Assembly: GCA_950295325.1 (NCBI GenBank)
Contig: OX485803.1
Location: forward strand, 24,986,001 to 25,050,000
DNA length: 64,000 nucleotides
From: Polytrichum commune
Lineage: Eukaryota; Streptophyta; Polytrichopsida; Polytrichales; Polytrichaceae
Direction: 5' to 3'
Part shown: positions 41,405 through 62,243 of the stretch, piece by piece
Layout of the letters: each line of letters begins with the position of its first letter
Position numbering within the stretch: position 1 is the stretch's first letter
Made by a program: the position numbers and the translations under genes
Notes under the pieces: generated by a model
What the model was told of the DNA's origin: nothing
Database searches by the model: none
The model's input: the letters and a program-made list of their open reading frames with translations, nothing else

Positions 41405-41415
41405 AAAGAGTAGAG

Positions 41416-41752
41416 TGTCACGGTATGCGGCGTTGACGGCCGCACCTTATCTGTTGGGTTTCATCCATCTAGATTTAGATGGATGAATCTTAGTTGTGGA
41501 GAGGAAGACTCCTAAGTGAGGAGCCTCCTCCTAGGCTTGGCATTCTTGCCAAGTCAAGTCTTGTGAGTGAGTCTGTGGAGAGAGCTTGTGTGAGGTGAAA
41601 ATTGAATGTGTTTTCAATAAATCTTGAGTTCTTCTTTCATTTCTTACACTCTTGGATTCTCCCATGGTGGAATGAGAGATAGCTTGACTCATTGTGTACA
41701 TTTGAAGAGAAATTTAAGCTCTTATGAGTGTTTGACTCTCTTCCTTATCACT
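41416..41752 (+). repeat. Terminal repeat X at the 5' end of element A
   Basis: The same sequence recurs at 50269-50602 near the 3' end of A and, interrupted, from 54442 at the 5' end of element B. All three start exactly at TGTCACGGTATGCGG. It holds three short hairpins (CCATCTA/TAGATGG, CTCCT/AGGAG, CTTGGCA/TGCCAAG) and an AATAAA at 41616-41621, as expected for a region containing the polyadenylation site. Homology with the 3' copy ends near 'ttccttat'. Confidence 0.88.
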
Positions 41753-43147
41753 TGGCAAAAATGTGTATGATTCCTTCTTTTCTCTTCAAATCTTGAGCTA
41801 TAACACTCAAGAAAGAGTGTGAGGACAAGTGGTGGCGGGATTGTGGAGTGGAAAACGACAAACATCACGGATTAGCGGAGCAACAAGAAGAGAGAGGTGT
41901 GCTTGTAAAGTTTACACATCACTTTGAATTGTGGTGAAAAATCTCTAAATACTACATGAAATTTCTTATCATGAGTTGCTCACAAGCATGAATTTGTGAA
42001 GTGGAAGGTGTAGGAGCATTGTTGATCCTCAAAATGGATCAAATTTTTAAGGAATTTATAAATAAATAATAAATAAATAAATAAAATGAGAGGGAGGCAA
42101 CCTGCCTCCCTCTGCAGTCGGCCCCTGGCCAGCAGGCTGCTGCTTCCTGCCAATGGTGCAGGCTTAAGGCCCACATTTTGATGATAGGCAAGGATTTTGG
42201 GCATAATCGGTTGAGACCCGGGTGTTTGTAAGTCCAACCGGTTACATATTAACAATCATTTTTAAAATTTTAATTTTAATTAATTCATGCATTAATGAAT
42301 TGAAAACCAAATTTTTTAAAATTAAATTAAAATTTTTTTTCTTATGTTTCCTTTCAATTTCGAATCTTTTCTTTTCTCTCTAAGGGTTAATATCTTGGGA
42401 ATTGAGAAAGACGGATTTTGACAAAAACTTTGTTTTCATTAATCAAGAACACAAAGAAGAAACCCAAAGCTCTTATGAAATATTAAAATACTTGGAATTT
42501 ATTTTAAGGGTTGTGTTGCACGAAATTTCCAAGGGGATGCCATTGGAGATTGGGTGGCATGTGGAATTTCCATTCGGCCTAAAATAAATTATTATTAGGG
42601 TCGAATTGTATTTATCAACACATATTCCTGACATTGTTGTAAGAAGGGATTCTTAGGTAGTAATGGGGAGATGAGAGATGTGCATAGGTATCATTTTTTT
42701 TTCATGGCAATAGGAAGCCCTCATTTTTTACCCCCAACTGCAGGCGGGTGCCAGTTGGTTGCGGTAGCTTTCAATTTCTGCTTAAGTGTTGTTTTGGGGA
42801 AGAAGATCCAATGTTATTATTGCATTATTCCTTGTATTTTGTTGTGGTATCTTCCCGTATGGCAGACTGTAGTATTGGAGTGTTCCAGTAATACCCTATT
42901 TTGTGTTGTCCTAGATTGTTATAGGATATTGTGGGGGCGAGGTCGGAGTATTGACCGACGGAACCCTTGTGTATGCACCAAGTGGGCGGTGTTTGTATTC
43001 CCTTATGGTGAGGCTGGATTGATAACCAACAGATCATAAATTTGGTGGTGTTTGCAGGTACATGTTGTCTTTCACCTTTTGACCCTTCATCTTGATACTA
43101 CATTAGTTTAGGTTGTTGGGTCCAGTGATCGAACCCATTGCGGGTTT
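41753..43147 (+). other. Element A untranslated leader
   Basis: A 1.4 kb leader is shared with element B (57478-58877) from 'cgacaaacatc.cggattag' to the Gag start. It contains an AAAT-type run, a conserved hairpin GAGGGAGGC/GCCTCCCTC near 42092-42113, and a block near 42195-42245 ('cggttgagaccc', 'aagtccaaccggttacat') also found near 24480. No convincing tRNA primer-binding site could be picked. Confidence 0.7.
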
Positions 43148-44700
43148 ATGGTTACAACTCGGAGCCAACATTATCGATCTCCGTCTCCGGCATCATCGGA
43201 AGGTCAATCCTCGGACCTCTTGGGCGTTGAACCAGTGATAGCACCCAACGAGGCTTTTCAACCTACTTCGGTGTGGGGGACTGCCACTCGGTCTCACGTC
43301 CTTTGTGTAGGATTCTTTGACGAGATGGAGGAAGACACGCGAGGCGGCATCCGGGATTGATTTTCCGGTCGAGCGGGGACTATTTCCCTACAAGATTAGA
43401 AAATTTGGTTTAGGACATGGATGAGGGAGAAACGTCAACGCAATACCAGTTTTAATTGTTAGTATACGTTCGAGGTACTGCCTCAACATTTAGAGCACGA
43501 GGCTCTCCAGACTTATGAGCAATGGACGAAGGCTCATTGGATGAAGCTGCGTCATGTCAAGTGGTACTGGAAGACTCGAGTTGAGTTGGTATCTGCATTG
43601 AAGGAAGGCGCAACTTCCAATTTGATGGCCGTTCCTGAGGTTAAGTCGGAGGTATCGGAGGGAGTATATGTGGTGAATGTGGACGGTGTTTCTCCTAGTG
43701 AACCCAAGGATAAGGGTTTTGCTCCCGCTGCGGCGAGTACGTCTAGTCCAATTCTTCCACTTTCTCGTTATGCCCAGGCTACACAGGCGGTATTAGCCTC
43801 TTTAGGGGCTCCGCTTTATTTTGATCATTTGCAGGAATTCCAATTCCATTTGGAGGAAGAATATGGAGGTTTCCGCCGAGATCAGATGCAGAGGATCCAT
43901 GACTTTTGACGGGAGAAAGAGGATACACCTTGTACCATGTACACGAGGTTGGCGAGGTTTGCTAGAGAATCTGGAGGTGTTTTTCGCAGAGAGCCAGTTG
44001 GTGAAGATTTTTTTGTCAGATTGACAAACACCTTATTGACTTGGCGTTGTCCATGATCATCATGGATTATGGTGCCCGGGTGACACTTGCGGAGGCTTTC
44101 ACCATTGTTGAGTAGTGTGATCGTGCCTTGTGTCAGCACGACGTCACTGAGTTAATATCCATGCTAGTGGATTATAGCAAATCCCGGAAGGTTTCAGTTG
44201 CGACTGCAGGATTGGCGGAGACAGAGGTGGACAAGACCTTGTATTGTTGGTCTTGTGGGCAGGCCAGCCACGCTAAGAAGGATTGTCCTTCCAAGCAAAG
44301 GCAAACCCAGACCGTAGGTAATCTGAAGCGGAAACCATTTGTTCCCATGAAGGATTCAACGAAGGGGGTGGATAAACATTACCCAAGCAGTTGACGTGTT
44401 CCCATTGTGGGCGGAACAATCACATGGTGGAGAGCTGCTTCGCTCTCCAATCAGAGAAACGTCATTCTTCCGATTGGGAAAAGACGTTGGAGGCGAAGAT
44501 TGAAGCATTGGAGGAGAGGTTCAAAAGTTTGGCGTCATCCGGCCAAATCTTGGACTCACCGTCCTCCTCCGCCGCTAAAGCTAGTTCTTCCACTCCGGAT
44601 TATTATATGTTCGGAGCCTCGGGGGAAATGGTGAGTTCCGCAGCAGTGACACAGGCTCAATCCGTGTTACGAGCCACGCCCTCAACCACAATGGAGTCTG
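43148..44700 (+). pseudogene. Gag of element A (broken)
   Basis: Collinear with the intact Gag frame of element B. It starts MVTTRSQHYRSPSP at 43148 and stops at 43358. The frame reopens at 43541 and at 44128, and includes a CCHC knuckle 'CWSCGQASHAKKDC' near 44261 and a second, 'CSHCGRNNHMVESC', near 44397, which bind nucleic acid in retroviral-type Gag. In this copy the reading frame passes from the second knuckle to the protease-proximal region without a shift, suggesting one Gag-Pol frame in the ancestor. At least four stops or frameshifts are visible. Confidence 0.85.
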
Positions 44701-45900
44701 TGAATAACTTACGAGCTCGGGACAATGGTCCCGCGGATCAAATTGGCCAGTCCCGTCTGCCATTATCTTTTGGATTAACGGATGTTGTCCAATCTGTCAG
44801 TGGTCGTCATTCGAGCTTGGAGGCTTCGAATCCGGCGACTGGCGTGGTGTACACTTTGGCATCCAAAGTGTTGCATACCCCTTTGTTCACGGCAATGGAG
44901 TGGTTGTCGCCATAGTTCTAATCTGCTAAGGTTTTGCACTTAGCGGTTAGGATTTTGGAAGGGAAGGCATCCTCACCTTCTTTGACCGTGGCCCAAGCCA
45001 CCACGGACATCTCTGCTTCTGAAGATCTCAAGGAAGTGGCCAAACAGCGAGCGAGACTTGCCGCAGAGACCATTGCGTCTTCTGACGCACACACCTCAGA
45101 TTACAGGGGACTGACCACGTCTTATGACTCACCAGAATCCGCGGGAGCAACTTATCTGTCTGATGTAGCTGCTAGACCTGCTCGCAGGCGCCGCGGCATT
45201 CAACTTGGCGTCGTGCGTATGGTGAATGATACCGGCATTTTGGTGGTCAGTCGGACTGGGGGCAATGTCACTCGGGTTGCTCCCCGTTGCGTGGTGATGG
45301 ATTCAGGGCACAACCGGTTATGATCAGTAAGAGGCTTGCCCATGAGTTGGGGTTGATGGCCAAGGATTTGGCTCTTTGCCCATTCACCATTGTCACATCC
45401 ATTGGTCACGTGGAGCAGGCTACAGGTTATACGCGGGAGCCATTACATCTTAGCTTTCGAATGAAACCTGGAGATACACCCGCACCTCTTCTTCTTAGGT
45501 GTGTGGTAACGGATGCGACCAACTATGACATTTTAGTTGGTCAGCAAGCACTTTACCCTTTTGGTTTTGGTTTGGACAACTGGACTGAGGTGGCGTGGAT
45601 CCGACCAGGTTGGTCGGCTGGGGATGGCCGCAGGAAACTTATTCTTGTGGCATTCGCGGCGGCCGCGACCATAGCACCATTATCCATGGTTTTTGGATGT
45701 GGTGCTATTGTGAACACATTGTCTTATGGTTTCGCATTGTTGGAGGAATCATTGGCATTCATGGGGAGTATATATGATCAACGGGATATGGCACCTAAGG
45801 GTGCATTGGTGCGCCATTCCAAGGATCCCCTTCCCCCTGGCGTGATTCCGCCGAGCTATTCCGGTGATGTGAGGATAATGTCCTCTCTCTCGCCTCTATG
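44700..45900 (+). pseudogene. Protease and linker of element A (broken)
   Basis: The region runs from the post-Gag segment ('PLSFGLTDVVQS', 'HTPLFTAMEWLSP') to an aspartic-protease active site 'CVVMDSG' near 45289-45309, followed by 'ISKRLAHELGLMAKDL' in the next frame. One base is missing right after DSG compared with element B, so the frame breaks at the active site. The conserved linker 'NYDILVGQQALYP' and 'PLSMVFGCGA' follows, leading to the methyltransferase. In retroelements this enzyme cleaves the Gag-Pol polyprotein. Confidence 0.8.
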
Positions 45901-45939
45901 ATACCGGTCATACCTGATAGCCCATCGGCGTTGGCACAC

Positions 45940-46830
45940 CCCATTTTGTGGCGCCCGCGAGACGCGGGAATCACTTTGGTGGAACTGTCACACTCATCAG
46001 TGAGGCCGACTTATGGCACTTGGGTCCAGTGGATATGGTGATTGCGGGATGGCCATGCCAGGGCCATTCACGTGCTGGAGCAGGCCGAGGTCTAGAGGAT
46101 CCCAGGTCTAGTATATTTTCGGACCTCGTCCGCCTCATGCAGAGGTGGTCTTCCCACCAACCTTCCCCTCCAGGGTATATCTTCTAGAGTGTACCTTTGT
46201 TGGGAGACTCTCGGGACAAGGTGTTGGAAGGCAGTCATTATGTTCGTCAACACCTTAGAGATCCTATTTTTGTGGATGCCGCGAGCATTGGTTCTTATGC
46301 CCACCGGCCTCAGTGGATTTAGACCAACCTCGTACCGTCATCTACTTTAGCATTTTCTGCAGTGCCTCCACCTTTTGATTAGAAGGTGGATAACATCTTG
46401 GATCCAAACCAGACCTCTTTGCCGATTGTTCGAGATGATGTACCTTCGTTGGCATTGGTCAATAAAGTGGGGGCACCACGGTGGGCCTTTCCCACGTTTA
46501 TGACGTTTCCACAGTCATTCGCATTCCGCGATCAGGGGCCGGGTATGGTGTGGGATTCTCACACCAAATCATTGGCTAACGAACGGGAGTGGGCCATGGG
46601 ATTCCGCACTGGCACCACCGCAGCTCCTGGCCTTTATGAGGGCCAACGACGCTTCGTGTTGGGCAAAGCCATGGATCTTCATACCATGGTGTGGACTCTT
46701 GGTTTATGCCTTGCATTGCAACGACATCATGGTGACCAGTTGTTGTCTCTGGGGGCAGAGGATTCTGGTCAGGGGATACAACGGTCCATATCCATGGAGG
46801 AAGGAATTGAGGTCATGGTTGGAAAAGCCG
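45940..46830 (+). pseudogene. C5-cytosine DNA methyltransferase domain of element A (motif I deleted)
   Basis: Readable parts are 'LISEADLWHLGPVDMVIAGW' leading into the catalytic 'PCQGHS' (Cys codon 46056-46058, motif IV), 'VPLLGDSRDKVLEG', 'DAASIGSYAHRP' (motif VIII region), then a long C-terminal part absent from element B's visible portion: 'GPGMVWDSHTKSLANE', 'REWAMGF' (motif IX-like) and 'RRFVLGKAMDLHTMVW' (motif X). The first part of the domain, motif I to III, is missing: 'gtggaactg' joins directly to 'tcacactcatcag', a deletion of about 195 bp relative to 61714-61908. The ENV motif is interrupted by a stop near 46185. The domain sits between protease and RT in the polyprotein order. 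The fold is a cytosine methyltransferase by its PCQ, ENV and motif X order. It is inactive here. Confidence 0.85.
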
Positions 46831-47039
46831 AACGAATCTTTCAATTCAAGCAGCAGGTTATGGAGGAACTCCGAATTCAACGGGTTTATACTACTTTGGT
46901 TTTTTCACCTCCGGTGATGGCTTCATCATCACATATTGGTGGTGATGAAGAGGGGATGGACTCTATTGCTAGCACAAAGGTTGGGGGCATGGTTAATACC
47001 CCCCCCCCTCTCATTAGCAGTTAGAGTCCGTGCTAGCAC

Positions 47040-47845
47040 CAGGTGGCTATTTTCTAGTGGAGAAGGAAACCACAAAGTTTGATGATTGGCCATTAGAATT
47101 GGGCCCTCATCTCACTGGTGTTGAGGCATAAGAAATACGAGCATTTATTTGCTCGTACCGTAGGTGTTTTGCCTTTAGCCTTTAAGATCTTGAAGGTTAT
47201 TAAGGAAAACCCATCCACATTCAGTTGGAGGACGACCATCCCATTTTTCGGAGACCTTATAGGCTCAATGTTTCCGAGCGGATTGGCGTTTAGGCTCGTT
47301 GCCGAGAGCTCTTGGCAACAAGGATAATCGAGTTGTCCAACGGGGAGTATATTTGTGCTATGGTTATGCCATCGAAGAAGGACATCTTTGGCAATTGGAT
47401 GGAGAAGCGGATGTACGGGGATTACCCTCCAGTTAACCGGAAAACCAAAACGGACCGGTATCCCATGCCAATTCCGGAGGAGTTGTTCGATGCCCTCGGA
47501 TTTGCTTGAGTCTTTAGCACGTTGGACTTGAGATCCGGCTATCACCGGCTCCCATTATTTATGGGAGACCGGGTGAAGACTACATTCTGGGGAGTTGATC
47601 AGGATGGGAAGGATCAACTGTACCATTGGAAGTTTCTTCCATTTGGCCTCAAGAATGCACATGCTGAGTTTTAAAGAGTGATGGACCAAGTCCTCTCTGG
47701 CTTGCCATTTGCTCGGTGTTACATTGATGATGTGATCATCTTCAGCAGGATACCACATGAGCATGTTAGGCACCTGCAAGTTGTTTTTGAACGCTTATAG
47801 CGGTGGGGATTGCGCTTACACCATGACAAGTGCTTCGACGTCTAG
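47040..47845 (+). pseudogene. Ty3/gypsy reverse transcriptase of element A (broken)
   Basis: After 'FLVEKETTKFDDWPLELGPH' the RT fingers and palm are readable across frames: 'QLEDDHPIFRRPYRL', 'RIIELSNGEYICAMVMPSKK', 'GDYPPVNRKTKTDRYPMPIP', 'FSTLDLRSGYHRLPL' (first catalytic Asp), 'WKFLPFGLKNAHAEF', and the catalytic box YIDD at 47720-47731 followed by 'VIIFS'. Stops and a frameshift near 47330 and 47508 and further stops near 47672 and 47798 make it non-functional. Sequence order and the 'FLPFGL' and 'YIDD' boxes assign it to the Ty3 class rather than copia. Confidence 0.88.
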
Positions 47846-48240
47846 ATGTCTCCAAATCTTTCCAGTTGCATACGGACTGGAGTTCATTGGGCTTGGGAGC
47901 AGTTCTCACTCAGAATGATGACTTTGGCCGGGAGTATGTTGTTGCTTACGCGTCGCTAAGCAACAATACGGTGGAGGCCAATTATTCATCTTATGAGGGA
48001 AAAACATTGGCAGCGGTATGGGCTATTGCCCATTTCCAGCCATATCTTTATGGTCAGCACTTTACTTTGGTGACTGACCATTAGCTGTTACGGTGGCTTA
48101 TGGAGTCGGATAAGCTTACTCGCAAGCTCGCCATGTGGGCTTTGTTGTTCCAGGAGTATGACTTTGAGGTGGTGCACCGTAGTGAGATTACCGTCTTGGA
48201 TGCAGATGGATTCTTACCCAATCCAAGTCCTTTGGATGAG
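47846..48240 (+). pseudogene. RNase H of element A
   Basis: Ty3-type RNase H: 'FQLHTDWSSLGLGAVLTQND' carries the first Asp, 'NYSSYEGKTLAAVWAIAHFQ' the Glu, and 'FTLVTDH' the third acidic residue. A single stop (TAG at 48082-48084) then interrupts 'DH-LLRWL'. The remainder 'RKLAMWALLFQEYDFEVVHR' follows in frame. It degrades the RNA strand during reverse transcription. Only this one break is visible in the domain. Confidence 0.88.
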
Positions 48241-49398
48241 GACTTAACCGGGGCCAGGTGGTATGGAGATTGTGATCGAGAGGCAGTTCCAGGTTGGCAC
48301 GTTGTTGCTTACCTCATTTTATTTTCTGGTGCGGCTGTTGAGGTTTCGATACAGTGCTGGGATGATGAGACTGATCGACCTCAAGCTATTGCGGATATAT
48401 GGGAGAATCTTCCCGTATTGCATAAGCTTCAGCAGGGGACCTTTCTTTCGTCCACCTCGGCAATAGAAATGGATAGGATTGGACATCGAATAACAAGGTT
48501 CCGTTGGGAGAACGGTTTGTTATTTCGATTGTGGTCGGATGGGACAAGGTGTATTGTCCCTAGACCGGATCAGAGGGCCTCCTTGGTGCGACAAGTGCAC
48601 GAGGAACTTGGCCATCCTGGCATACGTAGGACACATTTGATGTTGCGTGGCCAATATTGGTGGACTGACATGTATCAGCATGTGGATGCTTATATCGGGA
48701 GGTGTGAAGTTTTTGACCGGGTCAGGTCTAGCTTGAACACCTTGTCACCTCAGTTACAAGCCTTACCTATCATGGGATTGGGCTACCGTTGGTCGCTGGA
48801 CTTTGCAGGACCGTTGGTTGTCACAATACGTGGAACAAAGTACGTGTTGGTGATGGTGGAGCATTTTGGCAAGTGGATTGAGCTTGTTGCTTTACCCCAA
48901 AACTCTACAGAGTTGGCCACGGCCGCCTTTTTGGATCGTGTTTTGGTACGTTTTGGAGCACCGGCTGAGGTATTGACGGACCAAGGGAAGGAGTTCCTCG
49001 GTGTTTTTGAGGAGTTGTGCACTAAGACGCTCATAGATCACCGCACCACCTCTCGGGATCATCCGAAGGCGAATGGTTTGGCTGAACGGGTTGTTCAGAC
49101 AACCAAACGTGGCTTGAGGAAGTATGGATTACTTCGAGGGAGCCATCGGCATTGGGACGTTATGTTGCCTTGGATTGCTATGGGCTATCAATTTAGTAGG
49201 CATGCCTCTTTGGCGTCCTACAGCCCGTATCAGTTGTTGTATGGACGTGAGCCTATACTCCCGAGTTCTATTCGGGAAAAGCTAGCTCATGTTGTGGACT
49301 TGGATGACCCAAATATTTGGGCAGAGTATTTGCAGGAGCGGGCTCAATTCTTCCAAAGGGCCATGCCTATGGTCATGGAGAAATTTTCCATTGCTTAG
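48241..49398 (+). pseudogene. DDE integrase of element A
   Basis: This is the main part of a 432-codon open frame (48100-49398). The zinc-binding N-domain reads 'VHEELGHPGIRRTH', then 'CEVFDR' where CxxC is expected, so the second Cys has become Phe. The catalytic triad is complete: 'DFAGP' (D at 48799-48801), 'TDQGKEF' (D at 48979-48981) and 'NGLAERVVQ' (E at 49084-49086), spaced 59 and 34 residues apart. The frame ends at a premature stop (49396-49398) but continues in the same frame from 49411. The damaged zinc finger and stop suggest loss of function. In life it would join the cDNA to host DNA. Confidence 0.9.
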
Positions 49399-49410
49399 CA
49401 CTGTGACACT

Positions 49411-49872
49411 TTGCGTTATGCACGCATTCGCAGTGGTGCATACCGACCTCAGTTGCGGAGATTCCAGCAGGGGGATTATGTTTATCTCCAACGTAAGGTG
49501 CCTACGACATTGGATATCAGGGCAGGGCGCACTATCCTTCGGGTGAAGGAGGTGTTGTCGAATGGTTTGTTGTTGTTAGAAGGCAAGGATGGCAGGGAAT
49601 GTCGCGAGCATTCCAAAAACTGTGCCCCATGTCATCTATCCATTAAGGGTACAGTTCATCCTGAACTGGTCGTCGTGCTAGAGGGTCTTTCATGTTTTGT
49701 GTGTGGAGAGAAGAAAGGAGCGGCTATTATGCTCTTGTGTGATCAATGTCAACATGGTTGGCACATGGCATGTTTGAGGCCATCATTGACTTCTCTACCA
49801 TCTGGACAGTGGAGTTGTCCTCGCTATCGAGGATCTTCGGTACTTGGTACTTCTACCAATCGTATTCAATGA
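49411..49872 (+). pseudogene. Integrase C-terminal domain fused to a PHD finger (element A)
   Basis: In frame with the integrase. The segment 'FQQGDYVYLQRKVPTTLD' and 'TILRVKEVLSNGLLLLEG' resembles the SH3-like integrase tail (GPF/GPY region). From 49693 to 49827 follows a PHD finger of C4HC3 pattern: C-F-V-C, then 'LLCDQC', 'GWHMAC', 'SGQWSC', with the last position of the final CxxC being Tyr (TAT at 49825-49827) instead of Cys. PHD fingers read the methylation state of histone H3 tails. Placed where many plant gypsy elements carry a chromodomain, it may guide integration. One changed ligand makes this copy probably unable to fold fully. Confidence 0.85.
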
Positions 49873-50145
49873 TCATGTGTGGTTTTCATCATCTTGTGCA
49901 TGTCCAAATGGAAAATGAGGAATTATGGCTTAGAAATGCAATCAACATGAGGCGGTTGATTTAATTCTTTGAAATCTGATGGCCAAACATCAGAGGCGAT
50001 TAAAGATGGGGCTCACATTGCACCCAACCTACAGTTCATCGGAATGACGTTTACCATACTAGTTAGTTGTGGAGCAATCTTTTATTATCCATGCCCTTTG
50101 GATTGGCATTGGTCCTAGCTGCTTGGTAGGACTCCACAGTCGGCT

Positions 50146-50154
50146 GAGGGGGGG
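50146..50154 (+). other. Polypurine tract of element A
   Basis: GAGGGGGGG lies two bases before the TGTCGAGG... repeat Z. Its position after the last coding domain and before terminal repeats fits a plus-strand priming site. Confidence 0.65.
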
Positions 50155-50156
50155 CA

Positions 50157-50266
50157 TGTCGAGGTGTGTTGTTTATGTGTGACTTTGTTATGTTTTAGAA
50201 TTGTTTATATATTAGTGGTGGTTGGTACTCGAGCTGTAGTGACATATGATCGTTATTTACACGACA
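50157..50266 (+). repeat. Terminal repeat Z (first copy) at the 3' end of element A
   Basis: 110 bp starting TGTCGAGGTGTG and ending ACACGACA, with TGTCG/CGACA ends inverted to each other. A second copy is at 50603-50708. No copy is present at the 5' end of A or B. Confidence 0.85.
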
Positions 50267-50268
50267 TC

Positions 50269-50602
50269 TGTCACGGTATGCGGTGTCGACGGTCGCACCT
50301 TATCCGTTGGGTTTCATCCATCTAGATTTAGATGGATGAATCTTAGTTGTGGAGAGGAAGGCTCCTAAATAAGGAGCCTCCTCCTTGGCTTGGCATTCTT
50401 GCCAAATCAAGTCTTGTGAGTGAGTGTATGAAGAGAGCTTGTGTGAGATGAAGATTGCATATGTTTGCAATAAATCTTGAGTTCTTCTCCCCTTTTTTAC
50501 ACTCTTGGATTCTCCCATTGTGGAGTGAGAGATAGTTTGACTCATTGTGTGCATTTGAAGAGAGATTAAAGCTCTTATGAGTGTTTGACATTCTTCCTTC
50601 TC
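50269..50602 (+). repeat. Terminal repeat X (second copy) at the 3' end of element A
   Basis: 334 bp matching 41416-41752 at roughly 90 percent by eye, with AATAAA at 50469-50474. It lies between the two Z copies. Confidence 0.88.
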
Positions 50603-50708
50603 TGTTGAGCTGTGTTGTTTATGTGTGATTATGCTATGTTTTAGTGTTGTTTATTAGTGGTGATTGGTACTCGAGCTGCAGTGACACACGATCGCTATTT
50701 ACACGACA
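50603..50708 (+). repeat. Terminal repeat Z (second copy), outer 3' end of element A
   Basis: 106 bp starting TGTTGAGCTGTG and ending ACACGACA, nearly collinear with 50157-50266. It is followed directly by AGAG, which matches the 4 bp before the element's 5' end. Confidence 0.85.
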
Positions 50709-50712
50709 AGAG

Positions 50713-53150: not shown

Positions 53151-54010
53151 GAAAATCATATACACAGTAAATAGTAGACAATTTCCAGTATATAATAAAT
53201 AAAAAATTGTTAATAATATAATAATACACTATAAATAGTAAATAAGAATAGCATATCATTAATAGAAATAATATAATAATATAACAAAATAATAAATATC
53301 AGACCATAAATAGCAAATAATATACTATGCACAGTAGATAAGAATAACATATTAGAGGTAATAAATAATATACTATATAAAATAGATAATAATAAAATAC
53401 TATAAATTATAAACAGAAGACCATTAATAGTACTAATATACTATGAAAAATTGAAAATTAAATAGAAGACTATAAATAGTAAAAAAACTATATACATTAA
53501 ATAATAATAACATACTGAAATTTTAAAGAATAAAGATAATATTAAAGAATATTAAAGAATAAACATCAGACCATTAATAATAATAATATACTATGAATAT
53601 TGAAAATTAAATATCATACTATAATTAGTAAATAATATACTATATACAATAGATAATAATAATAAACATCAGACCATTAATAGTAATAATATACTATAAA
53701 TAGTAAATATCATATCATAAATAGTAAATAGTAAACTATATACAATAGAGAATAATGACATACTGAAAATAATAAATAATAAAACTATAAAAAACTATAG
53801 ACTATAAACAGTGAATATTAGGCAATATATAGTAAAATGATAATATAAATAGTAAATACGAGGCAGTAAATAGCAATTACGAGATACTTAATAATAAATA
53901 ATAGGTAGTATACAACAAATACTGGATAATAAATTATAAGCAGTAAATAATAGACAGTACATAATATATGCCGTATATAGTTGATATTATATTATTTACA
54001 GTAAATAAAA
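53151..54010. repeat. A/T low-complexity tract of degenerate 'aatagtaaataat' words
   Basis: About 860 bp built almost entirely from variants of 'actataaatagtaaata' and 'ataataataatata', with 'cat.agaccattaatagtaa' recurring near 53271, 53411, 53569 and 53667. The order looks like a decayed short-period tandem array. Confidence 0.75.
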
Positions 54011-54068
54011 AATAAAAAGTAACTTGGGGCCTCTATATATAAATGCTTTAAATACTTCTAACATATCA

Positions 54069-54300
54069 TGCGCGGAATGGTGGCTTAGTGGCTAAGGCTT
54101 CTATGTGGGAGCCAAGAGGTTCAAGGATCAAATCCCTTGGTTCCGCCCTTGGCTTAGCCTACTAGGTAAGTGTCTAGACACTTAGAACTATAGGTGCTTA
54201 TAGATGGCAAGGCTCGGGAGGTGAGGATTGGATTTACTAATGGTGGATATCTCTTTTAAATGACACTCATTTGTTAAAAAATAGGACCACTCATTATTCC
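54069..54300 (+). mobile_element. Possible tRNA-derived SINE
   Basis: A tRNA-like head begins near 54072 with 7 bp acceptor-stem complementarity (GCGGAAT with GTTCCGC). The pol III A box TGGCTTAGTGG is at 54081-54091 and the B-box core GATCAAATC at 54126-54134. A non-tRNA body follows, ending in an A run near 54278-54283. ACATATCA occurs at 54061-54068 and 54301-54308 and could be a TSD, though the second copy lies 17 bases past the A run. The anticodon arm does not form a clean 7-base loop, so it is not a functional tRNA. Confidence 0.5.
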
Positions 54301-54615
54301 ACATATCAACCAATGATAGCCCTACACATGCATGTACGTTTTAACGTTAAGTAATAATTTAGTGTGGAGCCCGTAAAACTTTTAGTATTTTTAGACATCA
54401 TAAACAATGGTCCTAAACATATTGGCTATGTCCAAATAGACTGTCACGGTATGCGGCGTCGACGGCCGCACCTTATCCGTTGGGTTTCATCCATCTAGAT
54501 TTGGATGAATGAATCTAGATGTGGAGAGGAAGGCTCCTAAGTGAGGAGCCTCCTCCTTGGCTTGGCATTTTTGCCAAGTCAAGTCTTGTGAGTTAGTGTG
54601 TGGAGAGAGCTTGTA

Positions 54616-55588
54616 TGTCGCAACCCTTGCTAGGTCCCTTAACAATCTTGCCAATTTTCGTTTCTAGCGAAGGTTACGAGCGCTAACCATTCGCATTCCG
54701 CCATGCTAATGGATAGCTCCTCTTACCCCGGACCAATAGTTCATAGGAGGGGAACCAACCCTCCTACTTTGATTTCGGGACTCACCCCTTTAATCGGTAA
54801 CCACTCCTTAGATGTGGACTTCCATCCATGGAAGTCCAATCTTATGTTGATCATCGCGTTGCCGGAGCAACACTACAACAACCCGAAGCATACTAGGCAA
54901 CTATGGCCTCACAATGGGCCAAAGCCCACGGAGGCCGTGCCGTTCGGCCTCGGGTGGGTGAGGCCACACCACCTCACCCATGTAAGCCTCTAGGACTCTA
55001 CGCGGGGCCCCTACCCCACCGTCAACCAACCTCTTGTCTCTCTACCAAGAGTTGGGGCCAAGTGGACATTTTCCCTTAGCCGCTGGGCCTAGAAGCCCCC
55101 AGCAGCTTCAGACCATCATAACTTCCTTGTATGATGTCTGATTCCAGCAACCAACCACTCCATCTTCATCTACGCTTCACGTAGATGCCGATGGACTCCT
55201 CACTTGCCCCATTCGGGCAAGTCTTGAGGAAGTTATGCCTGTTTGAACCTTGGCAGTCCCGGGAATCACTCCCAGGCACTGCTGTACCAGGGCGCTGTCC
55301 CGGGACAGCACCCCACTCAAATGGCCATAACTCCTAGCTCACACCTCCGATTGAGGTGTTCTTGAGCATTCTAGAATCACTACGCCATGAGCTACGCATA
55401 GCTCATGGCCTTACCCTTGTGCCTCCTAGTCTTCGTGGATGGGAGGCGTTCCCAACGCCCGGGGACCTCATCCACACTAGGATCACTTGGGCCCTCTCAC
55501 CAACGGCGCCACAAGTCCCGGGTGTCACTCCGGGGTCCCCCTTGTGCCCATGGTGTTTCGGGCACTCCTCATGGAGAGGTGCGCGACA
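54616..55588. mobile_element. Solo-LTR-like element, palindrome-rich, with TSD
   Basis: 973 bp from TGTCGCAACC to GCGCGACA, flanked by an exact 5 bp TSD TTGTA (54611-54615 and 55589-55593). A second, inverted copy lies at 55881-56764. TG...CA ends with a 5 bp TSD fit an LTR left alone after recombination. It contains many short perfect palindromes, including GCCATGAGCTA/TAGCTCATGGC (55384-55409), GGACTTCCAT/ATGGAAGTCC (54816-54837), CATCTACG/CGTAGATG (55167-55187), CTTGCCC/GGGCAAG (55203-55221) and CTGTCCCGGGACAG (55295-55308). Frames of up to 110 codons inside are not recognisable proteins. Confidence 0.85.
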
Positions 55589-55880
55589 TTGTATGAGGTG
55601 TAGATTGCATGATTTTGCAATAAATCTTGAGTTCTTCTCCCTCTACTTACACTCTTGGATTTTCCCTTGGTGGAGTGAGAGATAGCTTGACTAATTGTAT
55701 GCATTTGAAGAGAGATTTAGAGCTATTGTGAGTGTTCTACTCTCTTCTTATTCACTTGGCAAGAATGTTTGATTCTTTCTCTTTTCTTCAAATCTTGAGC
55801 TACAACATTCAAGAAAGAGTGTGAAGACAAGTGGTGGCGGGATTGTGGAGTGGAGAACGACAAACCTCGGGGGGTGCACC

Positions 55881-56764
55881 TGTCGCGCACCTCTCCATGA
55901 GGAGTGCCCGAAACACCATGGGCACAAGGGGGACCCCGGAGTGACACCCGGGACTTGTGGCGCCATTGGTGAGAGGGCCCAAGTGATCCTAGTGTGGGTG
56001 AGGGCCCCGGGCGTTGGGAACGCCTCCCACCCACGGAGACTAGGAGGCACAAGGGTAAGGCCATGAGCTATGCGTAGCTCATGGCGTGGTGATTCTAGAA
56101 TGCTCAAGAACACCTCAATCGGAGGTGTGAGCTAGGAGTTATGGCCATTTGAGTGGGGCGCTGTCCCGGGACAGCGCCCTGGTACAGCAGTGCCTGGGAG
56201 TGATTCCCGGGACTGCCAAGGTTCAAACAGGCATAACTTCCTCAAAAATTGCCCGAATGGGGCAAGTGAGCAGTCCATCGGCATCTACGTGAAGCGTAGA
56301 TGAAGATAGAGTGGTTGGTTGTTATGATCAGACATCATACAAGGAAGTTGGTTGACGGTGGGGTAGGGGCCCCGTGTAGAGTCCTAGAGGCTTATATGGG
56401 TGAGGTGGTGTGGCCTCACCCAACCGAGGCCGAACGGCACGGCCTCCATGGGCATTGGCCCATTGTGAGGCCATAGTTGCCTAGTATGGTTCGGGTTGTT
56501 GTAGTGTTGCTCCGGCAACGCGATGATCAACATAGGATTGGACTTCCATGGATGGAAGTCCACATTGGGGAAATGGGTTACCGATTAAGGGGTGCGTGAG
56601 TCCCGAAAGCAAAGTAGGAGGGTTGGTTCCCTCCTATGAACTATTGGTCCGGGGTAAGAGGAGCTATCCATTAGTATGGCGGAAAGCGAAGGGTTAGTGC
56701 TCGTAACCTTTGCTAGAAACGAAAATTGGCAAGATTATTAAGGGACCTAGCAAGGGTTGCGACA
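55881..56764. mobile_element. Second solo-LTR-like copy, inverted, nested in the hAT-like element
   Basis: 884 bp from TGTCGCGCACC to GTTGCGACA, the inverse of 54616-55588, with a deletion of about 85 bp near 56347. The flanks GCACC and ACACC match in 4 of 5 positions. It sits 15 bp inside the left end of the hAT-like element, so it inserted later. Confidence 0.85.
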
Positions 56765-56996
56765 ACACCTTTCATTAAAATCTAGAATCACGTGCGTTCA
56801 CTGCATACTCTAAAAGCCCCCTATATACAAGTTATTTTTTGTGAAATGAAGTAATACACATACAATTGCAATAATAAATATACAAGTGACAATATGTATA
56901 CACAAAAAATATCCATTCATATATAGTCATTAACATAAGTATACAAATATACTTTTGAACAATAATCAACCCCTATAATATGTATAACAAAATATC

Positions 56997-57188
56997 CTAG
57001 CTTTCATCAGCAAAGTCGTTGAAAACTTTTTCATCTCCCGGATGTAACTCATAAACATTTGATTCACCAATATATGTCATTGTAGCCAATGCAATTATTG
57101 TCTCTAAGTCTACCATCAAATGATCAGTAAGATCATATGTCCACTTGTTGTTAGCCCCTTTTTGATACCAACATAAACCAATCTCCAC
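56997..57188 (-). pseudogene. Unassigned 63-codon frame in the hAT-like element
   Basis: The frame reads 'MEIGLCWYQKGANNKW' to 'NDFADES'. Upstream on the same strand, past one stop, a protein-like stretch 'WVEYRDPIDLMYRP' continues, so this may be the C-terminal end of a transposase or a captured exon. I do not recognise the family. The amino-acid composition is plausible for a real protein, but the frame is short and lacks a start context. Confidence 0.3.
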
Positions 57189-57477
57189 GTTTCATGGACG
57201 GTACATCAAGTCAATTGGATCCCTATACTCCACCCAACGATTACAAAACTTCCTTCGCATCCAATATGAAAACTTATGATATGTAGTATAGTAACAGTAC
57301 CATACAAGTACAATTATTGTATATTTTTTAAAGGCCTTCCATATATGTACGTAACTATAAATTATAATATGTATATCATATGTATACGTAATACGGCAAG
57401 GTCCAAATCAATACCCCTCCTGTGCACTCACATATACTCGTACATGTTTAGTACAGTGCACCCCCCGAGCGACAAAC

Positions 57478-58877
57478 ATCGCGGATTAGCGGAGCAACAA
57501 GAAGAAAAATGTTGCTTGTGAAGTTTACACATCATTTTGAATTGTGGTGAGAAATTTCTCAATTCTACACGGAATTTCTTTTTATGAGTTGTCTATAAGC
57601 ATGAATTTGTGAAGTGGGAGGTGGAGGAGGCATTCTTGATCCTCAAAAGGGATCAAATTTTTGGCAAAAATAAAATAAAATAAAATAAAATAAAAATTGA
57701 AGGAGAGGGAGGCAGCCTGCCTCCTTCTGCAGCCGGCCCCTGGCCCCTGGCTTGCAGACTGTCTGCGGCTGCCGGCGTTTGCTTGCGGCTGTCGGCGTTT
57801 GTCTGCGGCCGTCGGCGTCTGTCAGCGGCTGCTGGCGTTTGTCTGCGTTCGCTGGCGGCTGACGGCGTTTTTCTGCGGCCGCCGACGTCGGTCAGCGGCT
57901 GTCGGTGTTTACAGTATGCTGCCTGCCACGCTTGCTGTTGTCTGCTGCTTGTGTGCTGCTGTCTGCTGCCTATCTGCTGCCTGCAGACTTAAGGGGTGGA
58001 AGGTTAAGTGATGATAGGCAAAATTTTGGGCATAATCGATTGAAACCCGAGTGTTTGCAAGTAAAATCCGTTACATTTTAACAATCATTTTTATTTCCAT
58101 TTTTATTTATTTATTTTATTTATTTATTTAATTATGTTTTTTTTCAAGTCCTTATTTTTCTTTTCTCTCTAAGAGGTTAATTTCTTATTTTCATTAATCA
58201 AGAACACAAGATGAACCCCAAACTTCTTATGAAATATTAAGGTAGTTGGGATTCATTTGGGGGATTGTTTTAAGGATCACCGAGGGATTGCCATAAGGAG
58301 TGGTGTGGCATGTTGGATCACCATTCGACCTATGTTGAGGTCGAATTGTGTTTATGGACACAGGTTCCACAAGTTTTCTTACGCATTGAAATTTGGGTTG
58401 TAATGGAAGGATAGGATATGTGCATTTCTTTTTCCAAAGCAACAGGGGCTTGTCATTTTGACCACCAATTGCAGGCGGGTGCCAGTTGGTTGCGGTCGTT
58501 TTCCATTTCTGCTTAAGTGTTGTTTTGGGGAAGAGGATCCAGTGTTGTTCTTGCATTGTTCCTTGTATTTTGTTTTGGTACCTTCCCCTGTGGCGGGCTG
58601 TAGTGCTAGGTGTTCTAGCACTGCCCCATTTTGTGTAGTCCTAGATTGTGATAGGGTACTGTGGAGGTGAGGTCGGGTTAATGACCGACGGGACCTTTGT
58701 TTGTGCACCAAGTGGGTGGTGCTTGTTTTCACTTGTGGTGAGGCTGGAGTAATGACCAGTAGACCATAAGTTTTGGTGGTGGGTGCAGGTACAGGTTGCC
58801 TTTGACCCTTTTTCTCTTTATACCTGGATACTAATTCATTTGGGTTGTTGATTCGGTGACCATTCCCTTGTGGGTTT
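57478..58877 (+). other. Element B untranslated leader
   Basis: Collinear with 41862-43147 of A. It includes an (AAAAT)n run at about 57666-57693, the hairpin GAGGGAGGC/GCCTCC, a GC-rich 20 bp minisatellite absent from A, and the conserved block 'ggcgggtgccagttggttgc' before the Gag start. No primer-binding site was identified with confidence. Confidence 0.7.
57761..57910 (+). repeat. 20 bp GC-rich minisatellite in the element B leader
   Basis: Seven units of 'gtctgcggctgtcggcgttt' type, six of 20 bp and one of 30 bp, with point variants. At the matching place in element A there is only a short 'gcagtcggcccctggcc' stretch, so the array expanded in this copy or lineage. Confidence 0.92.
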
Positions 58878-60424
58878 ATGGTTACAACTCGTACTCAACA
58901 CTATCGTTCCCCGTCCCCAGGAGCATCGGAAGGTTACCCCTCGGACCTCTCGGACGTTGAACCTATGGTAGCACCCAATGAGGTTTTTCAGCCTACTTCG
59001 GCGTGGGGGACTATCACTCGGTCTCACGTCCTGTGGGTGGGAACCTTTGACGATATGGAGGAGGATACTAGGGGAGGGATACGAGACCGGTTTTCCGGTC
59101 GAGCAGGGACCATTTCTCTGCAAGACTGGAAAATCCGGTTTCGTACGTGGATGCGAGAGAAACGCCAACGTAATACCAATTTTAGCGATTGGTATGCGTT
59201 CGAGCTTCTGCCTCAGCATTTGGAGCACGAAGCTCTCCAAACTTATGAGCAGTGGACGGAGACTCATTGGATGGAGTTACGCCAGGTGGAGCGGTACTGG
59301 GAGACTCGGGTTGAGTTGGTATCAGCATTGAAGGAAGGCGCAGCTTCTAGTTTCATGGCCGTCCCTGAGGTTAAGTCGGAGGTGCCGGAGGGATTATATG
59401 TGGTGGATGTGGAGGGAGCTTCTCCTGGTGAATCCAAGGATAAGGGTTCTACTCCCGCTGTGGCGAGTACGTCGAGCCCCATTCTTCCACTCTCCCGTTA
59501 TGCCCAGGCTACCTATGCGGCTTTAGCCTCTTTGGGGGCTCCACCAGTTTTTGAGCCGTTGCGGGCATTTGAGCTGCATCTACATGAGGAGTACAGAGGT
59601 TTCCGTCGGGACCAGATGCAGCGGATACAAGATTTTAGACGAGAAAATGACGATACACCTCGTACCATGTATACGAGGTTGGCGAGGTTTGCCAGAGAAT
59701 CTGGAGGTGTGTTTGCAGAAAGTCAATTGGTAAAGGTATTTTGGTCCAAGATTGACAAACGCCTCCTTGACTTGGCGCTGCCCAAGATCATCATGGATTA
59801 TGGTGGTCGGGCGACACTCGCAGAGGCATTCGCCATTGTGGAGCAGTGTGATCGTGCATTGTGTCAACACGATGCCACTGATTTGGTGTCTTTGCTAGTA
59901 GATTCTAGCAAATCCCGAAGAGTTCCGGTTGCGGCTGCGGGATTGGCAGAGGCCGAGGTGGACAAGACCATGTATTGTTGGTCTTGTGGGCAGGCCAGCC
60001 ACGCTAAGAAGGATTGTCCTTCCAAGCAAAAGCCAGCCCAGACTGTAGGTAATCTGAAGCGAAAACCATTTGTTCCCGCTAAGGATTCGACGAAGGGCAC
60101 GGGTAAACATTTACCCAATCAGTTGAATTGTTCCCATTGTGGGCGGAACAATCACACGGTGGAGAACTGCTTTGCTCTCCATCTTGAGAAACGTTCTTCT
60201 TCCGACCGGGAGAAGACGTTGGAGGCGAAGATTGGAGCCATGGAGGAGAGGTTCAAAAGCTTGGCATCATCCGGCCAAATCTTGGCCTCACCGTCTTCCT
60301 CCGGAGCTCAGGCTAGTTCTTCCACTCCGGATTACTATATGTTCGGAGCCTCGGGCGAGGTGGTGAGTTCCGCGGCCGTGACACGTGCTCAAGCCGTGTC
60401 ACAATCCATACCTTCGACCACAAA
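58878..60424 (+). pseudogene. Gag of element B
   Basis: An open frame from ATG 58878 (MVTTRTQHYRSPSP). The first 350 residues are capsid-like: acidic N-terminus, then 'GRAGTISLQDWKIRFRTWMR', 'ELLPQHLEHEALQTYEQW' and 'YTRLARFARE', resembling the plant retrotransposon gag domain. Two CCHC knuckles follow: 'CWSCGQASHAKKDC' at residues 367-380 and 'CSHCGRNNHTVENC' at 418-431, both C-x2-C-x4-H-x4-C. Compared with A, a net loss of 8 nt near 60427-60440 shifts the frame, so the open frame runs on to a false end at 60527. Gag itself looks intact, but the link to Pol is broken. Confidence 0.9.
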
Positions 60425-61077
60425 TGAATATGTGGCAAGCTCGGGACAATGCGCCCGCCGACCAAATTGGTCAGGCACGACTACCATTATCTTTTGGATT
60501 GGCCGATGCCGTCCAATCTGTCACTAGTCGTCATCCGAACGATGAGGTTTCACGTTCCGTGACCGACGTGGCACACACGTTGGCATCCAAGGTGTTGCAC
60601 ACACCTTTGTTCACGGCAATGGAGTGGTTGTCGCCAGAGTTCCAACCTGCTAAGGTTTTTCATTTAGCAGGTAGGATTTTGGAAGGGAAGACATCCTTAC
60701 CTTCTCTGACCGTGGCTCAAGCCACTACGGACATCCCTGCTTCTGAAGATCCTGAGGAGGTGGCCAAACGACGAGTGAGACTTGCGGCAGAGACCATTGC
60801 GTCTTTTGACGCACACGCCTCAGATGACAGGGCACCGACCACGTCTTACGACTCACCAGTATCCGCGGGAGCGGCTTATCTGTTTGATGTCGCTGCTCGA
60901 CCTGCTCGCGAGCGTCGAGGCATTCGACCTGGCGTTGTACGGATGGTGAATGATTCCGACATTTTGATGGTCGGCCGGACTGGGAGCAACTCTATTCGAG
61001 TTGCTCCCCAGTGTGTGATGATGGATTCAGGAGCACAGCCTGTTATGATCGGCAAAAAGATTGCGCAGGAATTGTGA
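60425..61077 (+). pseudogene. Protease region of element B
   Basis: In the +1 frame after the Gag shift, collinear with 44700-45340 of A. It ends with the aspartic-protease active site 'CVMMDSGAQPVMIGKK' (DSG near 61023-61031). A TGA at 61075-61077 follows 'KKIAQEL' where A has Gly, and the same frame continues open beyond it. Two lesions (8 nt frameshift, TGA) separate this copy from a continuous polyprotein. Confidence 0.85.
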
Positions 61078-62243
61078 TTGACGGCCGACGACTTGGCTCC
61101 TTGTCCATTTACCATCGTCACATCTATTGGCCACGTGGAGCGGGCCACTGGTTATACTCGGGAGCCATTACAGCTTAGCTTCCGATTCAAGCCTGGATAT
61201 TCACTCGCACCTCTTCTTCTTAGGTGTGCGGTGACGGATGCGACCAACTATGACATTTTAGTTGGTCAGCAAGCACTTTACCCTCTTGGTTTTGGTTTGG
61301 ACAACTGGACTGAGGAGGCGTGGATCCGACCAGGTTGGTCGGCTGGGGATGGCCGCAGGGAACTTATTCCCGTGGCTTTCGCGGCGGCCGCGACCATAGC
61401 ACCATTATCTATGGTTTTTGGATGTGGTGCTATGGTGGACACATTGCCTTATGGTTCCGCATTGTTAGAGGAGTCATTGGCATTCATGGGGAGTATAGAC
61501 GATCAACGGGATATGGCATCTAAGGATGCATTGGTGCGCCATCCCAAGGATCCCCTTCCTCCTTGGCGTGATTCCGCCGAGCTATTTCGGAGGTGCGAGG
61601 ATATTGTTCACTCTTTCACTCCTAGGACACCGGTCATAGCAGGTGTCCTCTCGGCATTGGCACATCCCATTTTATGGCAACCGCCAGACGCGGGGATTAC
61701 TTTGGTGGAACTGTTTGGGGGCATCGGCACAGGCTTAGCGGCCGTATTAGAGGCTGGCCTCACGGTTAGACGGTATGTCTATGTGGACAACTCTCAAGTG
61801 TCCACCCGTGTGGCTCGTCACCATTTTCACCATTTGATGGTATTGTACCCCCAGCAGTTACCTCCAACTGCCATTCGTGGGTGTTTTTCACGTCTCCCTC
61901 GTGATGTTACACTCATCAGTGAGGCCGACTTACGACACTTGGGCCCGGTGGATATGGTGATTGTGGGATGGCCATGCCAAGGCCACTCACGTTCTGGAGC
62001 AGGCCGAGGTTTAGAGGATCCCAGGTCTAGCCTTTTCTGGGACCTCATCCGGCTTATGCAGTGGTGGTTTACCCACCAACCTTCCCCTCCAAGGTATATC
62101 TTCGAGAATGTACCTTTGTTGGGAGACTCTCGGGACAAGGTGTTGGAAGGCACTTATTATGTCCGTCAACACCTTGGAGATCCCATTTTTGTGAATGCTG
62201 CGAGCATTGGTTCTTATGCCCACCGGCCTCGGTGGATTTGGAC
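61078..62243 (+). pseudogene. C5-cytosine DNA methyltransferase of element B, motifs I-VIII, cut by copia
   Basis: The frame is open from the TGA at 61077 into the copia LTR (stop 62254-62256). Residues 1-205 (counting from 61078) are the rest of the protease and a linker. The methyltransferase begins near residue 208: 'ITLVELFGGIGTGLAAVLEA' (motif I, SAM binding, FGGIGTG from codon 61714), 'YVYVDNS' (motif II), 'VDMVIVGWPCQGHS' (motif IV; catalytic Cys codon 61975-61977), 'YIFENVPLL' (motif VI, Glu codon 62104-62106), 'ASIGSYAHRPRW' (motif VIII). Motifs IX-X are missing here because the copia element starts at 62244; they are present in A. The PCQ and ENV residues needed for methylating carbon 5 of cytosine are intact. 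It is fused in the polyprotein between protease and RT. Target specificity cannot be read from this. Confidence 0.9.

Follow-up and report, generated by a model that had tools for sequence, protein, structure and literature searches.

Two broken copies of a retrotransposon

The window considered here is a stretch of 64,000 nucleotides (nt) of the Polytrichum commune genome (contig OX485803.1 of assembly GCA_950295325.1, forward-strand positions 24,986,001 to 25,050,000). It holds two copies, A and B, of a retrotransposon that carries a DNA cytosine methyltransferase (DNMT) and a PHD finger along with Gag, protease (PR), reverse transcriptase (RT), RNase H and integrase. Judged by their sequences, both copies are aged and disrupted, and they belong to a Ty3/Gypsy-like family that has been active recently.

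Copy A (41416-50708, forward strand, as are all its parts) is a whole but decayed element with the layout A1-internal-B1-TC-A2-B2, in which the numbered letters denote segments of a split terminal repeat. Its ends were placed exactly by the preliminary description: a 4-bp duplication, AGAG, abuts both of them (41412-41415 and 50709-50712). The left repeat, A1 (41416-41746, beginning TGTCACGG), has no B part and is 91.2% identical to A2; on the right, B1 (50161-50266) is separated by the dinucleotide TC from the 440-nt A2-B2 repeat (50269-50708), B1 and B2 being 85.5% identical. The Gag region (about 43135-45000) is broken, with a weak zinc knuckle (Pfam, 0.026) and 81-87% identity to the Gag region of copy B. 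Comparison by tblastn with an intact copy of the family recovers the remaining domains in sequence: PR (45198-45604, in two pieces with two stops), the Dnmt3-like DNMT (45987-46724, three stops), RT (47315-47833, three stops), RNase H (47830-48165, one stop), the zinc-binding domain and DDE core of integrase (48526-49305, stop-free), the integrase C-terminal region (49306-49677, one stop) and the PHD finger (49681-49830). Pfam also finds the integrase in frame 48085-49395 (zinc-binding domain 5.1e-14, core 2.2e-12) and the PHD finger in frame 49399-49869 (PF00628, 2.2e-10), in which Tyr replaces the last zinc-ligand Cys of the intact copies; frame 46383-47021 has no Pfam match. Between DNMT and RT, at 47015-47023, stands TAG CAG TTA, a match to the candidate leaky-stop context UAG CAR YYA that is taken up below.

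The left part of copy B (54438-62243, forward strand) comprises A1, in two pieces (54438-54614 and 55589-55831), a leader, a Gag frame at 58860-60524 (two CCHC-like knuckles by eye; Pfam zf-CCHC 0.27), a PR region at 60910-61329 (tblastn, one stop) and the first part of DNMT at 61648-62243 (PF00145, 2.3e-11, with the FGG and PCQ motifs present). At 62243/62244 the DNMT is broken by a Copia element that is no part of the family; it lies on the reverse strand from 62244 through the end of the window at 64000 and on to ~67964, and has long open frames (RVT_2 4.6e-78; Copia Gag and rve also found). Copy B then resumes outside the window, at the equivalent of 67965 to ~72649, where Pfam identifies RT, RNase H and, from the integrase, the zinc-binding domain with a portion of the core. 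The integrase tail and the PHD finger of this copy are seen by three-frame translation only, Pfam finding nothing in that piece, and the finger sits in another frame with two Cys-to-Tyr changes. The junction between DNMT and RT reads TAG and then CAA TTA. The preliminary description, which gave copy B the full domain order and had it run beyond the window, was right as to the extent, but of the domains of this copy the window shows no more than Gag, PR and the beginning of DNMT, and nothing from RT to PHD.

Several repeats adorn this neighbourhood. Copy B has two nested inserts at 54615-57470, within its left repeat and its leader; their inverted arms, of 469 nt (97%), 254 nt (91%) and 145 nt (93%), form a large palindrome that encloses a remnant of the left repeat. 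GC-rich tandem repeats of 20 nt and 11 nt lie in the same leader at 57760-57983, and between the two copies, at 53192-53756, there is a tandem array rich in AT whose periods are 48, 76 and 96. An Rfam scan of the window gave no match at the gathering threshold.

A family that carries both modules

The assembly searched for further copies comprises 408 Mb in 64 contigs, seven of them 42-78 Mb long. A search with PF00145 yielded 352 candidates, of which 123 were scored as matches; all 123 exceed the cut-off and a few may be host genes. Of the 123, 29 lie in open frames of 1195-1386 amino acids. The best-scoring 20 of these 29, taken as stretches of 10 kb, are the long copies referred to below, a sample that is biased to intact copies and that was picked by the length of the DNMT frame, with the PHD finger no criterion. 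The long copies split into two subfamilies by their repeat ends and frame lengths. Their first open reading frame (ORF1; 1386 or 1366 amino acids in open copies) encodes Gag-PR-DNMT and the second (ORF2; 1047 or 1048 amino acids) RT-RNase H-integrase-PHD, although the protease models match intact copies weakly, below their cut-offs (5.5e-4 and 0.034). The preliminary description placed DNMT between PR and RT, and there it is, but on the Gag side of a UAG codon and not in a single continuous Pol frame.

That DNMT and PHD are chance insertions near copies A and B is an explanation to which we give practically no credence, nothing having come to light in its favour. The PHD finger is present in 19 of the 20 copies that had been chosen by their DNMT frame (the exception, L009, is cut in the integrase tail, as read by tblastn), with both modules in coding frames. 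When integrase tail plus PHD served as the query, 589 candidates yielded 150 scored matches; 147 of these cover the PHD completely and three stop within it, with the reservation that scoring only the best candidates favours full spans. Chance insertion is refuted by these counts, together with that of the relatives given below. The modules are not confined to A and B, nor does a terminal repeat separate DNMT or PHD from RT in family copies. Hidden Markov model searches with Pfam recover DNMT, integrase and PHD, and the initial proposal of a family, made from two copies, holds and has become larger than first noted.

Split terminal repeats

The Ty3/Gypsy order Gag-PR-RT-RNase H-integrase, with a DDE integrase, is present in the family, DNMT being placed between PR and RT. 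The outer ends, TGTCAC and ACACGACA, are of the TG...CA type and are accompanied by short target duplications. Two identical complete long terminal repeats (LTRs), as expected of Ty3/Gypsy elements, are not present: repeat comparison rules out a plain LTR pair, since the left end has A only and an extra B stands before A2. In this respect the element layout first proposed has to be revised, although DNMT and PHD stand as parts of it. The general plan is A-internal-B-NN-A-B, with A1 alone on the left and A2-B2 (439-666 nt) on the right; B1 (105-107 nt) precedes A2 with a 2-nt spacer, which is TC in copy A and GC in the other 15 of the 16 copies compared, and B is absent from the left end in all 16. 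Split direct repeats of this kind are seen in 17 of 22 copies, three others being A-internal-B only and two being without a located end. An exact 4-bp target duplication flanks 18 of the 20 copies with both ends located. The repeats are 97.9-100% identical in 15 sampled copies, which points to recent insertion. No tRNA primer site was apparent by eye beside the left repeat of L019, the one place inspected, no tRNA scan having been made.

Two departures from the plan are recorded in their own right. L013, L016 and L024, whose ends were read by eye, consist of A-internal-B without A2-B2, yet have 4-bp target duplications; copies of this form can arise by B1-B2 recombination or by insertion of a one-unit DNA. 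The A2-B2 repeat of L018 is 666 nt long and has a partial duplication inside A, versus 520-560 nt in the other subfamily-1 copies compared.

Inside the element, the junction B-NN-A has the look of the two ends of a DNA copy joined together; the element thus probably carries an internal template for both ends, like DIRS elements, and leaves integration to the DDE integrase. DIRS elements, which are not known to generate target duplications, have the A-B-A-B plan in common with this family; the DDE integrase and the 4-bp duplications set the latter apart. Tyrosine recombinase (PF00589) is not among the Pfam matches of intact copies, in which a DDE integrase is found, and a fold search with a relative, P0004 (model mean pLDDT, the predicted local distance difference test score, 65), returned the foamy-virus (PFV) and Ty3 integrases.

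A candidate leaky stop between DNMT and RT

In each of the 20 long copies the junction between DNMT and RT is TAG followed by CAA TCA, CAA TTA or CAA CCA. (A fixed junction pattern missed L011, L013 and L015, which were read separately.) ORF1 is open right up to this UAG in 16 of the 20, and ORF2 continues in the same frame directly after it. UAG CAR YYA is the type I readthrough signal of tobamoviruses, as described in the relevant part of PMC3542737, and the two sequence marks of type I readthrough, this context and a continuing same-frame ORF, are both found here. A few LTR elements are known to have leaky stops, which are rare among them; VdLTRE5 (with UGA) and Tca2, in which a stop separates the Gag and Pol frames as it does here, are said to be without CARYYA in the portion of PMC3441728 that deals with them, whereas in this family the stop follows a DNMT.

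The genome contains 149 occurrences of the 27-base word that follows the stop, against none in a reversed control, and TAG precedes it at 20 of 20 sites drawn at random from 90 listed. Broken copies were sampled on contigs C1-C4, a restriction set by a listing of 100 of the 149 sites of the word. There the exact junction lies 1045-1103 nt downstream of 44 of 82 DNMT matches; from the other 38, L012 and L023 were left out and 20 of the remaining 36 were drawn at random, one of them (L080/L100) being the already sampled L011. Among these 20 random matches 17 junctions could be aligned, with TAG in 17 and CARYYA in 16 (CAGTTA seven times, CAATTA seven, CAATCA two; the exception is CAGTTG). The PHD finger stands at the expected distance in 10 of the 20, namely those whose integrase-tail match reaches its end; two have a partial tail and eight none in the stretch. 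CARYYA is obeyed by both subfamilies and by an older group of copies with 81-88% identity to the reference, even though the bases at R and at the first Y vary among them.

If the UAG signal works, DNMT is made with Gag, and RT-RNase H-integrase-PHD is made only as a minor extension. It is quite improbable, in our estimate, that there is no readthrough and that ORF2 is expressed through re-initiation, splicing or an RNA of its own. Such a scheme would fit the relatives P0042 and P0044, which have one continuous frame, and the Met that lies 14 codons after the stop in L019. On the other hand, ORF2 follows the stop directly and in the same frame, the first Met of L025 is ~115 codons in, and CAR YYA persists in lineages that have different bases at R and Y.

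The DNMT and PHD domains

The DNMT has the unrearranged Dnmt3 motif order I-IV-VI-VIII-IX-X and the catalytic Cys, and a fold search by way of the relative P0032 supports a Dnmt3 fold. By motifs and modelled fold the family DNMT is Dnmt3-like, and its activity on DNA is putative. The PHD finger of intact copies (Pfam, 2e-10) has C4HC3 zinc ligands in 17 of 17 complete rows of the alignment. At the position two residues before the His, where the Trp-cage rule used in assigning PHD fingers to classes of H3 reader looks for tryptophan, Gly stands in 18 of 18 rows. A K4me3-type finger was considered and rejected, there being no cage Trp and no ING or BPTF among the best 60 of 119 matches. In sequence the finger resembles readers of unmodified H3 tails, and such binding is putative. 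No chromodomain is among the Pfam matches of intact copies, and PHD occupies the end of the integrase. Chromoviruses are Ty3/Gypsy elements with a chromodomain at the integrase C-terminus, so that the position of a chromatin-reading module is common to both and the module is different.

Relatives and precedents

Proteins with these modules occur in other genomes. The integrase tail plus PHD, used as a query, found 16 proteins, all with PHD (which the query held), one of them from Tetrabaena socialis. The DNMT query found 34, including 13 from Marchantia polymorpha, which are Gag-PR-DNMT or DNMT-RT pieces, and one from Sphagnum fallax. P0002 (found by PHD) and P0026 (found by DNMT) come from the same source and both lie on an 8955-long contig, probably the same one. 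A query with DNMT, integrase and PHD of the relative P0014 gave 276 matches, and among the best 120 listed there are 119 new relatives, 117 of which have DNMT and PHD in one frame; this again argues against chance insertion, with the reservation that a query holding both modules shows that the architecture is common to them and not how frequent it is. In 102 of the 117 the order is RT-DNMT-integrase-PHD, DNMT standing between RNase H and integrase. The chlorophytes Haematococcus lacustris and Monoraphidium neglectum are among these listed relatives; none of the matches listed for the three queries (for the third, the best 120 of 276) bears the name Klebsormidium, most having no species label. 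Viral contigs scanned with the integrase-PHD alignment and with DNMT contained no confirmed relative.

The PR-DNMT-RT order of the P. commune family is also read in P0037, P0042 and P0044. Integrase and DNMT trees, from alignments in which rows under a length cut-off were dropped, both recover two groups of elements, one with DNMT ahead of RT and the other with DNMT behind RNase H (support 100/99 and 100/100). The second group is represented by 22 rows, namely P0007 and P0012, neither of which shows an RT, and 20 rows chosen by hand among the 120 listed; the first by 15 integrase rows, nine of them without DNMT in the same frame and labelled by assumption. The matching split implies either one early capture and a subsequent move or two captures. 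Side observations on individual relatives are that the DNMT of P0009/P0015 is degenerate, having kept the catalytic Cys and lost motif I, and that residues 1552-1606 of P0014, after the PHD, have a weak Tudor-like match below the cut-off (PF21743, 8.4e-5).

DNMT-bearing Gypsy elements with DIRS-like repeats have been published for Klebsormidium (PMC5890265), and a 2025 survey mentions Dnmt3 in both LTR and DIRS elements, together with a group called ChloroDNMT that occurs in chlorophytes and charophytes (PMC12344493, in the part concerned with them). KnitGypsy-Dnmt3 of Klebsormidium nitens resembles the present family in combining Gypsy domains, a Dnmt3 and DIRS-like repeats, a likeness drawn from the published description and not from Klebsormidium sequence; its Dnmt3 is intronless, lies inside the element and is reported to be under purifying selection (de Mendoza et al. 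2018, PMC5890265). There the Dnmt3 is in the Pol frame, whereas here DNMT ends ORF1 before the UAG and PHD ends ORF2. The main text of PMC5890265 never mentions a PHD, which its Figure 4c and supplement could nevertheless show. SymbioDIRS-Dnmt3, from the same paper, also places a Dnmt3 in a retrotransposon with A-B-A-B repeats, but has a tyrosine recombinase instead of a DDE integrase, a dinoflagellate host and, in the main text, no PHD.

PHD fingers likewise have precedents in mobile DNA. Ginger1-9_HM has a Gypsy-type integrase/transposase with a C-terminal PHD, as here, but is a DNA transposon with Ulp1 and, as far as its entry in PMC2836005 goes, no DNMT listed, whereas the present family is a retrotransposon with DNMT. 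Some CR1 and L2 long interspersed elements are retrotransposons with PHD too, but with the finger located, by the account in PMC4120745, either in ORF1 or at the beginning of ORF2 and not, as here, on the integrase. In the literature outside most subscription journals no account was found of DNMT plus PHD on a Gypsy-type element, bryophytes and green algae included. An arthropod retrotransposon has reportedly captured a methyl-CpG-binding domain, an epigenetic reader of DNA methylation; the title of that report, which PMC12344493 cites, names no pair of histone reader and writer of the kind seen in this family.

A proposed model for a self-marking element

The family and its anatomy are secure at the level of sequence, from which the domain order, the conserved UAG CAR YYA, the split repeats with their 2-nt spacer, the 4-bp duplications and the near-identical repeats of young copies can all be read directly. 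The functional steps that we infer from this anatomy make up a model that we hold, on balance, to be probable: Gag-PR-DNMT, a leaky UAG and RT-RNase H-integrase-PHD would together allow the DNA copy to be methylated in the particle and tethered by PHD to silent chromatin. Most ribosomes would stop at UAG, and DNMT would be made and packaged with Gag at a high level; a small share would read through, adding RT, RNase H and the integrase-PHD fusion. The Dnmt3-type enzyme would then methylate the new DNA copy inside the particle, and the PHD finger, akin to binders of H3 tails with unmodified lysine 4, would anchor the integration complex to silent chromatin. A new copy would then be marked from the outset and come to lie in a tolerated place.

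A different use of the same parts, which we consider unlikely, has host DNA, and not the element's own copy, as the target of a DNMT working in trans, whether the enzyme serves as a decoy or disturbs host methylation, with PHD steering the integrase loosely. An ORF1 that ends with DNMT before the stop would indeed yield abundant Gag-PR-DNMT from which PR could release the enzyme, but in the 16 copies whose ORF1 reaches the stop unbroken the enzyme is fused to Gag-PR, which suggests packaging, and three relatives share the PR-DNMT-RT order.

The strength of selection on the two modules bears on a further alternative, that they are kept passively while the family amplifies the cargo of its master copy, neither one aiding transposition. 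Between subfamilies the ratio of nonsynonymous to synonymous divergence (dN/dS) is about 0.1, the zinc ligands of PHD are retained across deep divergences, and the integrase and DNMT trees have the same split, all of which makes passive carriage distinctly improbable in our judgement, even though some relatives have lost modules and constraint on PHD and DNMT within subfamilies is weak. The corresponding within-subfamily ratios (pN/pS) for the two subfamilies are 0.96 and 0.50 for PHD and 0.64 and 0.31 for DNMT, versus 0.13 and 0.16 for RT; they come from stop-free segments, involve few changes and have post-insertion drift mixed in.

That weak constraint also counts against the model of in-particle methylation and tethering, as do a number of other observations. 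The survival of a short motif in old copies is partly a matter of chance, there being no selection copy by copy, and the case for a leaky stop consequently rests on lineages more than on single copies. P0042 and P0044 have DNMT without PHD and run from Gag to integrase in one stop-free frame, the DNMT of Tetrabaena P0007 is without the catalytic Cys, L028 has no target duplication and that of copy B is 3 bp. Transitions in copy A relative to L025, which is a relative and not its ancestor, are mildly raised in symmetric contexts (CG 13.8%, CHG 13.9%, CHH 10.4% and A/T 6.6% of sites); the decay of copy A was considered as a trace of self-methylation and rejected, the excess being mild and not CG-specific. 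A DNMT of the SymbioLINE type failed to methylate DNA when tested in yeast (PMC5890265, main text).

A broader version of the model is more speculative, and we put it forward as possible but doubtful: an old Ty3-like clade, spread through the green lineage, would pair a chromatin writer with a reader, deliver a pre-marked copy to H3K4-unmethylated chromatin and use a DIRS-like template with a DDE integrase. The same joint claim, no less tentative, holds that in this branch the Dnmt3 would be made at the level of Gag by way of a tobamovirus-type leaky stop and would methylate the DNA copy in the particle.

Implications

Why a retrotransposon should bring along an enzyme of a type used to silence elements is a known puzzle of the DNMT-bearing families. 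Two added facts narrow it: the enzyme is on the Gag side of a leaky-stop context, a position that predicts that it is abundant and packaged, and a finger of the histone-reading type is on the integrase. The many young copies in the P. commune genome and the many relatives make the question testable, and an element with a DDE integrase and DIRS-like split repeats bears on how such repeats are copied. If the model is true, the element may mark its own DNA and choose its landing place.

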